From: Lachnospiraceae bacterium
Lineage (GTDB): Bacteria; Bacillota; Clostridia; Lachnospirales; Lachnospiraceae
Assembly (NCBI GenBank): GCA_016280395.1
Contig: JAEEGQ010000163.1
Coordinates: 23,197-87,196, forward strand
Reading direction: 5' to 3'
DNA: 64,000 nt
A program made the translations under genes and the position numbers. This document shows, piece by piece, positions 52,780-61,369 of this stretch; position 1 is the first letter of the stretch; every line of letters begins with the position of its first letter. Under the pieces are notes generated by a model, which saw only the letters and a program-made list of their open reading frames with translations, was not told where the DNA came from and did no database searches.

Positions 52780-55700
52780 TTAATCCAGCTCCACAAACCT
52801 GAAGTTTCTTATCTTTCCGTAAACGGGCGGTGCATCTACCCTTAAGCCTATCCTTGCGTTTCCGGGTTCGCTTATCTCAATGTCCAACGAATTAAGTGTA
52901 AAATCGATGTCGGAAGGGTAAATCTCCTTCTCGACGATAACTTCTTCATTACACGTAACGCGCTTAAGATAGAGCCTTACCCTTACACCTGTCGTGTTAG
53001 TTCCGCGGTATTCCACGGAAAGCCTGTATTTGCCGGCTTTATCGACGCGGATATCCCTGCAGAGCTCAAATATAAAATTGGAAATGCTCGAGAAAGAAAG
53101 TTCTCCGTTTTCACAGGACATTTCAACATCATCGGGTTTTCTCCATGTCCACCAGCCCGAAGTCACATCCGTGAATTCTCCCTCCGGTATCAGATCTGTA
53201 CCCGCGGGAGGCAGCTCTTCGCTCTTTTTTCTGTAGAGTGATGCGATATATCTGTCAAGGTTCGGAACAGAAGGATGCGCGGGATCAAAATCCTTAAACG
53301 CAGCAAAAGAAGGAAGGAATCTGCCCTCCGTATCCATCATGCCCATATTCTCATCCCAGCTGCTTATGTTTTTATCCGGAAAGCAGAGCGGTTCCCAGTA
53401 ATACACGCCTGTCCCGCGCCCGCCGGAAACATTTGAAGCGATCTGCATCACAAGTGAGAGCGACTTCTCCTGTTCTTCTATCCCTGCAGGCAGCCCGGCC
53501 ATTTTCATCATCTCTTTGTTGATGTGCTCTGCTTCGCAGTGTCTCCATGGATGTGCCGTCTCCACCACATATACCGGAAGCTTGTACCGGTCGATGAGCT
53601 GGGCCATGGAATCCTTAAGATCCTTAAAAGTACCGTGCCAGAAGGAATAGAATGAAATGCCGATGGCATCGATCTTTTCCATGCCTGCCGCAAACATTGC
53701 ATCGAACCAGTCACGCAGTATAAAGAAGCGTCCGCCCTGGTCAAGATGGATCATGACAGCAATATCCTCCGAGATATCGCGTACAGCACGGATCCCGGCA
53801 TTAACAAGAGCCGCAAGGGCCTGGTAATCCGGAACGGCTCCTTCGGGGAAGAGCATGCCGCTCCTGATCTCGTTCCCTATCTGAACCATATCGGGAAGCG
53901 CATCATTTGCGGAAAGCTCAGCAAGTACATGATGCGTATATTCATAAACCGCTTTTGTCAGACCTTCAAGGTCAAGCCCTTCCCATGCCGCAGGCTTTCT
54001 CTGCTGGCCGGGATCGGCCCAGAAGTCCGAATAGTGGAAATCAAGCATGAAATGCATATCATGATCTTTGATCCTTCTTGCCATCGCAATAGTGTGAGAA
54101 AGATCGCAATATCCGCCGGATTCGGGCACATTCGCGGGTTCATTCCAGATGCGCAGGCGGATCGAATTTATGCCGTTTTTGGCAAGAAGGTCAAGCGGAT
54201 CCCCGGGATTTCCGTCCTGATCCCTAAAGACAAGGCCCAGATCCTCTTTTCCCGGAACGCTTGAAATATCGGCACCTTTAAGGAACCGGGGCTTTTTAAA
54301 CGGCTTCCCCGTGATTGGCTTTGCACCGGGTTCACTGTGTCTGGCACGCTTCACTTCATACATGTGCTTATCGGCCATCACAAGGTATTCCTCAGGCGTA
54401 TGCGAGGATTCCGGATCTGTGTAGATGACACCGCTGCTCACCTCTATATTGCGCTCAAGAAGTCCGTCATGAACACGGCCAATAAAACGAGCAACCTTTG
54501 CTTCTGTAGCATAAGGTATGAAAACTACAAATTCATCACCACCGAAACGGTAAGCATAGGAATCGAGCGGCTTATATACCTTAAGCGCCTCGGAGATGGT
54601 CAGGAGCACCCTGTCTCCGAAGTCGTGTCCGTAGGTATCGTTAATCGTCTTGAAATGGTCAACGTCAAAGAAACATACCGCACAGACGATCTTATCCCTG
54701 CGGTAGAGCTCAAATCTCGGCAGGATCATCTCGTTATAGGTGATCCTGTTATAAAGCCCCGTCAGAACATCACGGTTATACAGGCCTTTCATCCTTGCGG
54801 CGGCATTCTCAAGCTGCGTCTGGATGAAAAGGTTCTGAAGCCTGTTAACAAAGGTGTGATGCGAATCATAGAACTGGGAATGGTCATACAGGAAATCCGG
54901 CTCAAGGAGTATCGTCATGCCCACTCTCCGGTTTCTGAAGTGGATCGGGAAGAACATATAATCCCTTGAATGTTCCGCAGATGCGAGATAATCCATGACA
55001 TCATTGTAGTTCCTGACCGAATACAGACGTTTGCCGCGGTCTTCTCCGGCAACAACGATAAGCGAATCCCTGTCAAGCCTGTCTTCCGAAAAGCTGCTTT
55101 CGGGCATTGCTTCCATAAGGGCCTTATCGACAAGGATGAACAGTCCGTCACAGTCTATATTCCTGATAAATCCCGCAAAGCTCTCAAAAAGCCCGCTGAT
55201 ATTGCGGCACTCTGCAAAACGCTTCTCAAGTTCGAGCGTATGCTCCTCGTGGCGGTTCAGGTCAACAGTATAGTCTATCTGCCACTTCGCATAATCGCGG
55301 TAATCCACAAGACCGGTGTTTGGGCATCCGCAGGTCTCCGCAGGGACTATCTCACTGTGCATATAGGTGTAGATGTCCACTTCCTCGTTGTTCATGAGGG
55401 CGTTCAGCACTTCAAACGCACGGTAACTGAGCGTTCCGCGGTTGTGGTTGACACTTGCGATCTGTGGTTTGTAATAAGCGGCCTTGTCGAGGTTGTCAAA
55501 GCCCGTTACCCTGAAATCCTTAGGGATACTGTAGCCCCGGTTGGTCGCCTCCTTACATATCCCCGCAGCTATATTGTCATTCGCGCAGATAAAGACATCG
55601 GGAAACTCCTTCCCGGCTTCGACCCATTCGGTAAAATAACGGACACCGGTATCAAAATCAAAATCCCCGAACATGTAGCTTTCTTCAGTAACCGGAAGCC

Positions 55701-56181
55701 CAAGCTCCTCCATGGTCTCACAGAAAGCCTCAAAACGCTGTATGCTCTCGTAATGGTAAAGCGGCCCGCCGGCATAGACCATCCTGCGGCAGCCATGAAC
55801 ATCATACATGTGCTTTACCATCTGGCGGATAAGGTTTTTATTGTCGTTCCCGACATAATGGAATCCTTCGACATAATAAGAAATGCTAACAACGGGGACT
55901 TTGACTTTTTTCAGTCTTTCCACCGTGGCAGTGATGACATCCGGATTTTCGGTATTCGAACAATCAAAGATAAACCCGTCGAAATCGTCGTAGTCTATCT
56001 GTTCGTAAAGAGAGTATTCGCCTTCGTTGAATTTCTCATCATGGCTCAGATTGCCGTTGGTATTAAAGGTATAAAGGCAAATGTCCACACCGAGTTCTTT
56101 GGCACCCTTTTTTATTCCGTCCACCCATCCGTAAGTCACGTATCTGCGCCATCCGTCGGTTATCAAAGCGATCTTTTTCAT
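52780..56181 (-). CDS. Four-part fusion: LacI/PBP-type ligand domain + GGDEF diguanylate cyclase + GH53 endo-beta-1,4-galactanase + C-terminal beta-sandwich/CBM-like module
   Basis: aa 1-290 PBP (VTGFDNLDKAAYYKPQIASVNHN); GGDEF at aa 547-551; aa ~631-965 GH53 (FLKGADISSV, LDFHYSDFWADPGQQRKPAAW, MVQIGNEIRSGMLFPEG, VVETAHPW); uninterrupted frame. Confidence 0.92.
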   Translation of the reverse strand: MKKIALITDGWRRYVTYGWVDGIKKGAKELGVDICLYTFNTNGNLSHDEKFNEGEYSLYEQIDYDDFDGFIFDCSNTENPDVITATVERLKKVKVPVVSISYYVEGFHYVGNDNKNLIRQMVKHMYDVHGCRRMVYAGGPLYHYESIQRFEAFCETMEELGLPVTEESYMFGDFDFDTGVRYFTEWVEAGKEFPDVFICANDNIAAGICKEATNRGYSIPKDFRVTGFDNLDKAAYYKPQIASVNHNRGTLSYRAFEVLNALMNNEEVDIYTYMHSEIVPAETCGCPNTGLVDYRDYAKWQIDYTVDLNRHEEHTLELEKRFAECRNISGLFESFAGFIRNIDCDGLFILVDKALMEAMPESSFSEDRLDRDSLIVVAGEDRGKRLYSVRNYNDVMDYLASAEHSRDYMFFPIHFRNRRVGMTILLEPDFLYDHSQFYDSHHTFVNRLQNLFIQTQLENAAARMKGLYNRDVLTGLYNRITYNEMILPRFELYRRDKIVCAVCFFDVDHFKTINDTYGHDFGDRVLLTISEALKVYKPLDSYAYRFGGDEFVVFIPYATEAKVARFIGRVHDGLLERNIEVSSGVIYTDPESSHTPEEYLVMADKHMYEVKRARHSEPGAKPITGKPFKKPRFLKGADISSVPGKEDLGLVFRDQDGNPGDPLDLLAKNGINSIRLRIWNEPANVPESGGYCDLSHTIAMARRIKDHDMHFMLDFHYSDFWADPGQQRKPAAWEGLDLEGLTKAVYEYTHHVLAELSANDALPDMVQIGNEIRSGMLFPEGAVPDYQALAALVNAGIRAVRDISEDIAVMIHLDQGGRFFILRDWFDAMFAAGMEKIDAIGISFYSFWHGTFKDLKDSMAQLIDRYKLPVYVVETAHPWRHCEAEHINKEMMKMAGLPAGIEEQEKSLSLVMQIASNVSGGRGTGVYYWEPLCFPDKNISSWDENMGMMDTEGRFLPSFAAFKDFDPAHPSVPNLDRYIASLYRKKSEELPPAGTDLIPEGEFTDVTSGWWTWRKPDDVEMSCENGELSFSSISNFIFELCRDIRVDKAGKYRLSVEYRGTNTTGVRVRLYLKRVTCNEEVIVEKEIYPSDIDFTLNSLDIEISEPGNARIGLRVDAPPVYGKIRNFRFVELD

Positions 56182-58378: not shown

Positions 58379-58468
58379 GAGCCACAGTGGTCGTTTCTGA
58401 GTCACCGGGGTCGTTTCTCGGTGACTCACTTTCCGAATGAGTCACCGGGGTCGTTTCTCACTGACTCA
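58379..58468. repeat. Array of three palindromic repeat units
   Basis: GAGCCACAGTGGTCGTTTCT (58379-58398), GAGTCACCGGGGTCGTTTCTCGGTGACTCA (58399-58428), GAGTCACCGGGGTCGTTTCTCACTGACTCA (58439-58468). Confidence 0.88.
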
Positions 58469-59532
58469 TTTGCATTACGTCGCATTTTTCGCCGGATGCG
58501 GTTGATATGCCGCTCAAAATCGCCGCTCTCGATAAGCTCGCATAGCAGGTACTGCTCCAATGTCGGGACGGTACATGAATAGAATCCGAGCTTTTCTGAA
58601 AACACGGGAACAAGCGGTTTGGGGAGCACCATATAGCCCGCGCGCAAGGCCGGCGAAACCGTGCGCGTGAAGGTATTCAGATATATCACATTTTGGCTGC
58701 CGGAATTTGAAAATACGGTTTCTTCATGCTTTCGCAAAAAAGAAAATTCGGACTCGAAATCATCCTCAACAATATAGCGCCCGGGCTCCTGCCCCCATCT
58801 GATGTACTCATTGCGTTTTGAAGCATCCGCCGTGACACCGCTCGGAAAGCTGCGGTACGGAGTAATGTGCAGCACTGAAGCAGCTGCACCGGCAAGCGCA
58901 TCGGAGCGGATGCCTTTGTTCCCGAGTGGCAGCATTTCCACCTTGACGCTGCGCGAGCGGTATACCTGCTCTATCTTTTCATAAGACGGCGCTTCAATGG
59001 CATAAACACGCTCACGCCCGAGCAGCTCGACCACAAGGCCGTACAGATACTCGGCGCCGGAACCGATGACGATCTGTTCGGGAGTCACCATCATGCCGCG
59101 GTTACGCGCAAGATAGCCTGCAAGCGCCTCCCGCAGCCGGTCCACGCCCCGGGAAGGTGAGCGCAAAAGAAGTGTCTCGCCCTCTTCACTGAGAACGCGG
59201 CGCACGGCTCTTGCCAGTGTCGGAAAAGGGAAGGATGTCTCGGGAAGGTGCAGGGGAACGCTCTTTGCCGGAGCCTCCGCATAAGCAGGCGAATGCGCAA
59301 ATCCGTCATCCCTGCGGAATATAACATAAAAACCGCTGCGTGCCCTGGCTTCGATATAGCCCTCCTGACTCAAAATGTCATAGCTGTGCTCTACGGTTAC
59401 GGCGCTTAGCCCCCGCTCTTCCGCAAGCATCCTGCGTGACGGCATACGGCTCCCGTACGGCCAGATTCCCTGTATTATCTCATCCCGCAGCGTCTCATAT
59501 AAACTGATATAATTTGGCTTTTCTCTTTTCAT
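58426..59532 (-). CDS. GntR/MocR-family regulator (PdxR-like), apparently C-terminally truncated and lacking the PLP Lys
   Basis: GntR HTH GSRMPSRRMLAEERGLSAVTVEHSYDIL; aminotransferase-like IVEDDFESEF, NTFTRTVSPALRAGYMVLP; C-term ESVRNDPGDSFGK reads through the repeat. Confidence 0.85.
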   Translation of the reverse strand: MKREKPNYISLYETLRDEIIQGIWPYGSRMPSRRMLAEERGLSAVTVEHSYDILSQEGYIEARARSGFYVIFRRDDGFAHSPAYAEAPAKSVPLHLPETSFPFPTLARAVRRVLSEEGETLLLRSPSRGVDRLREALAGYLARNRGMMVTPEQIVIGSGAEYLYGLVVELLGRERVYAIEAPSYEKIEQVYRSRSVKVEMLPLGNKGIRSDALAGAAASVLHITPYRSFPSGVTADASKRNEYIRWGQEPGRYIVEDDFESEFSFLRKHEETVFSNSGSQNVIYLNTFTRTVSPALRAGYMVLPKPLVPVFSEKLGFYSCTVPTLEQYLLCELIESGDFERHINRIRRKMRRNANESVRNDPGDSFGK

Positions 59533-59663
59533 CTGGTATTATAAAAATCTCACATTCTGGCTCTTTTCATAAAACCAATCATAATATATACTATCGTCAT
59601 TATCAAGTCAAGGCGATGTCTGAAACAAAACGCCTTGAAACAATTAATAGACAGAGGCCTTCC

Positions 59664-60422
59664 ATGAGCAGCGAAGAGATAACAAAGACCAACATTGCGG
59701 AAAATATAAGTAATGTCCGGAACATAATCAAAAGCGCATGCGAAAGATGCGGGCGCGATCCCGGGGAAATAACACTTATCGCTGTAAGCAAAACAAAGCC
59801 TTTTACTGATATCCTTGAAGCATTTGCAGCGGGCGCGACAGCCTTTGGCGAAAATTATGTCCAGGAACTGACGAACAAGATCGGGCAAAATGAAAGTCTT
59901 GCTACCCCGAAACCGATAGAGTGGCATATGATCGGGCACCTTCAGAAAAACAAGGTAAAATACCTTGTCGGCCGTACAGCGCTTATCCACTCGGTAGATT
60001 CCGTATCCCTTGCGGAACAGATCGAGAAAGAGGCTGCAAAAAAAGACCTTTCGGTCCGTATCCTTCTCGAAGTCAATGTTGCGCGTGAAGCAAGCAAATT
60101 CGGGTTCGATACAGACAGCCTGCTGCACGCTGCGAAGGAAATATCCGCTCTTCCGCATGTCAAAGTCCTTGGTCTTATGACCTCTGCGCCCGTTACCGAA
60201 AATGCCGAAACAAACAGGGTATACTTTCGTAAGCTCAACACGCTTGCAAAGGAGCTTGCTGCAGAAAAACTGCTTGCAATAGCGGACGGCCAGAGTCCTG
60301 TCCTTTCCATGGGAATGACAGGCGATTATGAAGTTGCGATCGAAGAAGGTGCAACAATGGTCCGTATCGGAACGGCCATTTTCGGAAAAAGAGATTATCT
60401 AAACGGAGGAAACAAAACATGA
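59664..60422 (+). CDS. YggS/PLPBP-family pyridoxal phosphate homeostasis protein
   Basis: LIAVSKTKPFTDI, FGENYVQEL, EWHMIGHLQKNKVKYL, VLGLMTSAP, SMGMTGDYEVAIEEGATMVRIGTAIFG; start chosen at MSSEEITK (AGAGG upstream). Confidence 0.93.
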   Translation: MSSEEITKTNIAENISNVRNIIKSACERCGRDPGEITLIAVSKTKPFTDILEAFAAGATAFGENYVQELTNKIGQNESLATPKPIEWHMIGHLQKNKVKYLVGRTALIHSVDSVSLAEQIEKEAAKKDLSVRILLEVNVAREASKFGFDTDSLLHAAKEISALPHVKVLGLMTSAPVTENAETNRVYFRKLNTLAKELAAEKLLAIADGQSPVLSMGMTGDYEVAIEEGATMVRIGTAIFGKRDYLNGGNKT

Positions 60423-61252
60423 AAAGAATACTGACGATACAGGACATCTCCTGCTTTGGCAAATGCTCTCTTACAGTGGCTCTTCCCATTCTGTCGTCAA
60501 TGGGAATCGAAACAGCGATCCTTCCCACTGCAGTCTTAAGCACACATACCCTTTTCAAGGGCTTCACCTGCAAGGACCTGTCGGATCAGCTTAAACCCAT
60601 CACGGATCACTGGAAGAACGAAGGCATCACTTTCGACGCGATCTATACAGGGTATCTCGGTACCGAAGAAGAAATTGATACGGTCATAAATATAATTGAT
60701 ATGTTCAGGGATAAAGACACACTTGTGTTTGTGGATCCTGCCATGGGAGACAACGGGAAGCTGTATGCTGCCTTTAACGAGCATTATGCAAAGAAAAATG
60801 CCGACCTTTGCGCAATTGCCGACATTGCCGATCCCAACATAACCGAAGCCGCATACCTGACGGGTCTTCCTTACAAAGAAGAATATACCGAAGACTATGT
60901 GAAGGAGCTGCTTTTTGCCCTTGCGGACATCGGAACAAAGACCCCGATCCTTACAGGCGTCTCCCTCGCCGAAGGAAAAACCGGCGCAATGGGCTATGAT
61001 GCCGGAAAGAACGAGTTTTTCATATATCAGAATGACAGGATCCCGAAATCTTATCACGGCACGGGCGATATCTTTTCAAGTGTGCTTGCCGGTGCTTTCG
61101 TCCTTGGCAAAGACAGAACAAGCGCACTAAAGCTCGCAGCGGATTATACCGCCAATACCATTGCCGAAACACTAAAAGACCCGAAGGATCCCTGGTACGG
61201 TGTGAACTTTGAAGCGACCATACCGCAGCTTGTCGAGGCAATAAAAAAATGA
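60419..61252 (+). CDS. Pyridoxal/pyridoxamine kinase-like protein
   Basis: ILTIQDISCFGKCSLTVALPILSSMGIETAILPTAVLSTHT, YHGTGDIFSSVLAGAFVLG. Confidence 0.9.
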   Translation: MKRILTIQDISCFGKCSLTVALPILSSMGIETAILPTAVLSTHTLFKGFTCKDLSDQLKPITDHWKNEGITFDAIYTGYLGTEEEIDTVINIIDMFRDKDTLVFVDPAMGDNGKLYAAFNEHYAKKNADLCAIADIADPNITEAAYLTGLPYKEEYTEDYVKELLFALADIGTKTPILTGVSLAEGKTGAMGYDAGKNEFFIYQNDRIPKSYHGTGDIFSSVLAGAFVLGKDRTSALKLAADYTANTIAETLKDPKDPWYGVNFEATIPQLVEAIKK

Positions 61253-61353
61253 GTCACCGGGGGTGTTTCCCGCTGCCTCATTAAAGTGAGTCACCGGGGG
61301 CATTTCTCACTGACTAATAAAATGAGTCACCGGGAAACGACCCCGGTGACTCA
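61251..61353. repeat. Array of three palindromic repeat units
   Basis: GAGTCACCGGGGGTGTTTCCCGCTGCCTCA (61251-61280), GAGTCACCGGGGGCATTTCTCACTGACTAA (61288-61317), near-perfect hairpin GAGTCACCGGGAAACGACCCCGGTGACTCA (61324-61353, reverse orientation). Confidence 0.88.
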
Positions 61354-61369
61354 TTTACACTTTCAATAT

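Follow-up and report, generated by a model that had tools for sequence, protein, structure and literature searches.

A 64,000-nucleotide stretch of DNA from a gut or rumen member of the Lachnospiraceae, here called the window, carries a gene whose sequence marks it as encoding a PdxR-type MocR regulator. This is most probably (at roughly 0.6) a working B6 regulator belonging to a conserved, shortened branch of PdxR, in which PLP or a related vitamer would be sensed without a covalent bond. The protein is set apart from ordinary MocR members, as a new shortened and lysine-less form within PdxR, because two features held to define MocR regulators, namely a complete aminotransferase fold and the lysine that holds PLP, are both missing from it. 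That lysine (Lys312 in GabR) has been reported to be conserved across all MocR clusters (PMC6677901), and in the non-subscription literature searched no mention was found of a MocR regulator that lacks it or is shortened at its C-terminus, although this falls short of proving that none exists. Coordinates of the relevant features are collected in Table 1.

Table 1 Features of the pdxR region of the window (positions are those of the window; an empty strand cell means that no strand applies)
Feature	Position	Strand	Remarks
Short PdxR-type MocR regulator, 368 aa	58426..59532	-	wHTH (residues 8-70 or so), then a linker and the large aminotransferase domain; the chain stops after the inter-domain helix, without a small domain
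Codons for the final 13 residues (ESVRNDPGDSFGK)	58429..58467	-	written largely by the palindromic repeat unit
Two REP-like palindromic repeat units, overlapping and following the pdxR 3' end	58398..58471		copies at 58398-58431 and 58438-58471
More copies of the repeat found at the pdxR end, here at the kinase gene's 3' end	61246..61355		
Arg290 codon, CGC	58663..58665	-	Schiff-base Lys position (GabR Lys312); sequence reading and alignment
YggS/PLPBP (PLP homeostasis protein), divergent	59616..60422	+	TIGR00044 206.8 bits; start probably the ATG that opens MSETKRL; mechanical ORF from 59514
Pyridoxamine kinase	60419..61252	+	4-bp overlap with yggS; PRK07105 295.5 bits, above cut-off
Predicted operator, TTGG-N13-GCCAG-N19-ACCAG	59533..59578	-	immediately precedes the ATG; 24 bp between CCAG half-sites
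Predicted pdxR promoter, TTGACT-17-TATATT	59583..59611	-	conserved in orthologues
Predicted promoter of the divergent B6 operon, TTTTCA-17-TATACT	59564..59592	+	weak -35; overlaps the pdxR -10; CTGG half-sites upstream of the promoter

The shortened protein and its relatives

The reading frame runs from an ATG to a TGA and its product contains NTFTRTVSPALRAG. In the initial annotation this product was described as MocR/PdxR-like, and such an identity is borne out by the NCBIfam PdxR model NF052282, which is the top-scoring family (351.6 bits, cut-off 320) and which also matches all of the 36 aligned short members; the score against the GabR family model, at 225 bits, is below the curated cut-off of 600. 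The wHTH is of the GntR type (PF00392, 46.9 bits vs 27), and Pfam also finds the aminotransferase-like domain PF00155. The annotation was likewise right that a C-terminal part is missing: coverage of NF052282 extends from position 3 to position 362 of 448, leaving out about 86 C-terminal positions, and about one fifth of the usual PdxR length is gone. Where MocR regulators have a complete fold-type-I aminotransferase domain, made up of large and small parts, there is here a large domain only. An AlphaFold2 model (of a monomer without ligand, using the 36 short members in the alignment) has a pLDDT of 86 and a pTM of 0.69 and includes a complete large domain, with residues 338-359 as the last helix; using Foldseek, the modelled large domain can be superposed on PdxR and GabR with an rmsd of 2.0-2.6 Å over about 250 residues. 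No remnant of the small domain is found 3' of the gene, as the annotation had noted, or anywhere else in the window, since apart from chance matches the C-termini of full-length proteins find nothing but the HINR helix common to both forms. The same outcome at other short loci led to rejection of a split gene with its C-terminal part in a separate ORF, and a search of the region for structured RNAs or riboswitches gave no Rfam match.

The best sequence match is PdxR of B. clausii (E 8.6e-65; PDB 7pq9, 7zla, 7zn5, 7zpa, 7zth). In common with PdxR regulators the window protein has a wHTH combined with a fold-type-I domain, membership of the NF052282 family, divergent B6 genes, an operator with direct and inverted half-sites (in this case predicted) and the three PLP-pocket residues Asp, Tyr and Arg, but it has neither the small domain nor the Schiff-base Lys of the 478-residue B. 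clausii protein. To GabR of Bacillus subtilis (4n0b, 4mgr, 5x03) it is similar in the fold of the large domain (rmsd 2.0-2.3 Å over about 250 residues) and, if the autorepression proposed below is correct, in being an autorepressor with a divergent target. However, GabR binds PLP through Lys312, forms an external aldimine with GABA and uses Arg430 of its small domain (PMC6917764), whereas the window protein has no counterpart of PLP-Lys312 and lacks the region of Arg430, the carboxylate site for GABA. Full-length MocR/PdxR proteins of the same order (e.g. L014/L152, 494 aa, from a same-genus genome) are 37-45% identical to it and, judged by eye, have related CTGG/CCAG-type upstream elements; unlike it they are mostly 450-510 aa long with a small domain, and 23 of 27 have the Lys.

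Judged by its distribution, the shortening is a conserved, clade-wide feature that extends across many genera. A scan of bacterial genomes yielded 80 loci where the match ends near the end residue of the window protein, and the ORFs of such short loci are nearly all 351-391 aa in length, with a stop right after GDFERHINR[IV]RRxxRK (the 84 short rows that were aligned include a few duplicates and one frameshifted row that falls outside this range). In an order-wide search of 392 genomes a match was found in 187, about 35 of these being of the short type (two with longer linkers) and the remainder mostly 460-510 aa; all 29 short sequences extracted from this sample, which is independent of the scan, end at the GDFERHINR helix, and the short type is found outside the order too. 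In trees the short forms all fall into a single clade (support 100), including when the Lys column is removed, and the sub-clade that contains the window protein (30 rows) is also supported at 100. Between the window gene and an 85% identical orthologue, L037, NG86 values of dN and dS are 0.09 and 1.63, giving a dN/dS of about 0.06 that is only approximate because dS is near saturation. The basic helix that closes the short form is the counterpart of a basic surface patch named in PMC6677901. Two short members, L149 and L150 (436- and 426-codon frames), have an enlarged linker between wHTH and core, together with Arg at the Lys position.

As for the repeat to which the annotation had ascribed the C-terminus, the last 13 residues do indeed lie largely in a palindromic unit, TGAGTCACCGGGGTCGTTTCTCGGTGACTCA, of which the genome has about 58 copies when no more than two mismatches are allowed (0 for a reversed-pattern control). 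In L037, however, there is no repeat, and the protein stops at the matching place, ending in RRKMRRTGADPE before the stop codon; in total, orthologues without the repeat that stop at the matching place number 79, plus 29 from the independent sample, with the helix GDFERHINR[IV]RR preceding the end. Because these proteins stop there without a repeat, the repeat is not the cause of the shortening; on this comparison it replaced the natural tail and wrote only the last 13 or so residues. The idea of a lesion private to the window genome is accordingly not supported, and the existence of same-length orthologues with a conserved C-terminus and no repeat removes that part of the earlier interpretation which concerned the repeat and decay, while leaving the part concerning Lys and Arg intact. 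The repeat family, which is REP-like (TGAGTCACCGGGGTCGTTTCTC...), is also present at 154-175, and its copies at the pdxR and pyridoxamine kinase 3' ends bracket the B6 cluster, one copy being translated.

The lysine position and the remaining pocket

Replacement of the Schiff-base Lys by Arg, as originally proposed, is upheld by a phmmer alignment in which Arg290 lies opposite the PLP Lys of both B. clausii PdxR (7pq9) and B. subtilis GabR (4n0b). No alternative Lys at this position was found in the phmmer or orthologue alignments, and the replacement is fixed in the window's own clade, where the 30 rows have 29 Arg, one Leu and no Lys. Over the short forms as a whole this column is variable, comprising 50 Arg, 28 Lys, 5 Gln and 1 Leu in the 84 aligned rows, and 14 Arg, 12 Lys, 2 Gln and 1 Gly among the 29 sequences of the independent sample; on a wide tree there are 19 changes between Lys and non-Lys, a few of them in long forms. 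Since the deepest short branches still have Lys, the rooted tree suggests that truncation came first and that Lys was lost afterwards, and repeatedly. In a 42-row Arg clade, position 290 has changed once, against a mean of 5.0 changes per column, and CGC accounts for 38 of the 46 Arg codons found at this column over the short set, so that Arg looks selected here rather than drifting. Three full-length MocR proteins from related genomes (L019, L026 and L029, 450-472 aa) also have Arg at the Schiff-base Lys position, within the motif TFSRSIAP and with the other motif residues intact.

The ligand contacts of GabR have been tabulated (PMC6917764 and PMC6677901), and the window protein has Asp257, Tyr184 and Arg297 as the equivalents of Asp279, Tyr205 and Arg319, all three being invariant in 84 of 84 short rows. 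Within the 42-row Arg clade, which spans 18.9 substitutions per site, there are no changes at all at G157, G159, E161, Y184, D257, T287 or R297, the strength of this pocket-conservation test being moderate (p about 0.03). The positions equivalent to GabR 248 and 282, which in GabR contact His400 of the small domain (PMC6677901), have been exchanged together in the short forms: the former is Arg227 in 79 of 79 short rows and His in every one of the tree's 24 long rows (Arg227 being missing from some deep short members), and the latter is Glu260 in 76 of the 79 and Asp in all 24 long ones. Tyr281, too, is mostly Phe in the short forms. We infer that Arg227 and Glu260 may be a compensating pair on the face exposed by loss of the small domain.

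Neighbourhood and predicted regulatory DNA

The two opposed -10 elements overlap in the window, and in orthologues the upstream DNA is strongly conserved, consisting of a TTGAC-17-TATA promoter followed by TTGG-N13-GCCAG-N19-CCAG and then the ATG; at 58 of the 63 loci that scored well, the CCAG half-sites are 24 bp apart. The direct and/or inverted repeats that characterise the divergent intergenic region of PdxR systems are represented by a conserved motif, the predicted operator. In the genome as a whole there is one exact operator site, and sites with three mismatches are no commoner than in a reversed-pattern control (one in each case), for which reason the window protein is probably a local regulator. 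Upstream of the short pdxR orthologues (e.g. L045 and L091) a CCAG half-site of the operator abuts the start codon, and there is a conserved GGAG some 16 nt before the ATG, beyond the usual Shine-Dalgarno distance.

Among the 107 orthologous loci with enough upstream DNA, for which divergent genes were clustered and cluster representatives identified, the divergent gene is of a B6 type in 83 (ECF S component 58, pyridoxamine kinase 15, PdxS 8, YggS 2), in keeping with the linkage to PLP synthesis or salvage by which PdxR is recognised. The ECF S component has a Pfam match of the riboflavin type, its context suggesting vitamin B6 as the substrate. In the window genome no PdxS scores over the cut-off, and de novo B6 synthesis is not supported, which makes control of salvage by the window protein plausible. 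The divergent arrangement fits that described for PdxR, a PLP-inhibited activator of pdxST/pdxKU that activates the divergent gene and represses its own promoter (PMC5320631, PMC11619246). Also on the minus strand, at 52780-56181, there is a 1133-aa ORF with what by eye are LacI-type sensor, GGDEF-like (GGDEFVVF) and glycosyl-hydrolase-like parts.

Proposed sensing without a Schiff base

The sequences themselves establish the family, the clade-wide shortening, the loss of Lys, the conservation of the pocket and of the upstream motif, and the neighbouring genes. PLP binding, DNA binding at the motif, the direction of regulation and the mechanism of signal transfer may be pictured as follows. 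The short PdxR would bind the CCAG/CTGG half-sites in the interval that separates pdxR from the divergent yggS-pyridoxamine kinase operon. By analogy with PdxR it would activate these genes for B6 salvage at low PLP, and would repress its own promoter, the initiation region of which the predicted operator covers. The pocket of the large domain would read PLP, or another phosphorylated B6 vitamer, without a Schiff base, Tyr184 stacking on the ring, Asp257 contacting the ring nitrogen and Arg297 the phosphate, while Arg290 probably supplies a polar contact in place of the Schiff base. Because the small domain is missing, neither the usual open-to-closed domain movement nor a GabR-type carboxylate site would be available, and a pure ligand sensor, without transaminase-like chemistry, is therefore to be expected.

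Non-covalent sensing of PLP or a vitamer, which was raised as an option in the initial annotation, is still the best reading and the most likely mode, but two rivals keep some weight because in EnuR the mutation Lys302His abolishes PLP uptake and leaves the repressor locked (PMC8739950). One is that the regulator is blind to PLP, acting as a constitutive activator and autorepressor that sets a fixed expression level, with its large domain kept only for dimerisation. By analogy with EnuR, a protein that loses the Lys can lose PLP with it, and the pocket residues may be conserved for the sake of folding or dimerisation; the Lys column is after all variable, and a blind PdxR would still activate since apo-PdxR is the active form (PMC5320631). 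This seems unlikely, if far from negligible, given that the pocket residues which serve the ring nitrogen, ring stacking and the phosphate do not vary in Arg or Lys sub-clades, and that Arg290, mostly encoded by CGC, has been retained in the Arg clade instead of drifting. Rather less likely again is that the old PLP pocket now holds a different ligand, such as PNP, PMP, a vitamer without phosphate that the salvage transporter brings in, or some unrelated metabolite that is phosphorylated: vitamers that lack the aldehyde need no Schiff base, and the clade-specific pocket changes described above (at GabR His248, Asp282 and Tyr281) could be read in this way, but the main phosphate and ring contacts of PLP are retained and many short orthologues beside similar genes still have Lys. 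That this is a MocR gene in decay, truncated when a repeat inserted into it, as the repeat-derived last 13 residues and the missing Lys might at first suggest, is refuted by the same-length orthologues without a repeat, from many genera and in one clade, and fits no better with the low dN/dS, the conserved operator region, the invariant pocket or the failure to find a remnant of the missing part.

Seen more widely, there is perhaps an even chance that what has emerged is a widespread PdxR clade freed of covalent PLP chemistry, in which the small domain was lost once, Lys thereafter became optional (Lys, Arg and Gln interchanging many times), Arg was fixed in one lineage, and a non-covalent B6 sensor came to be built on a partial aminotransferase fold. 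MocR regulators are generally held to require the full fold and an internal aldimine between PLP and Lys, and a natural clade that has no small domain and for which the Lys is optional allows the need for a Schiff base, or for domain closure, in PLP sensing by MocR proteins to be tested. The short PdxR is also the likely B6 regulator in many gut and rumen Clostridia, where it is often found beside a component of an ECF-type transporter.
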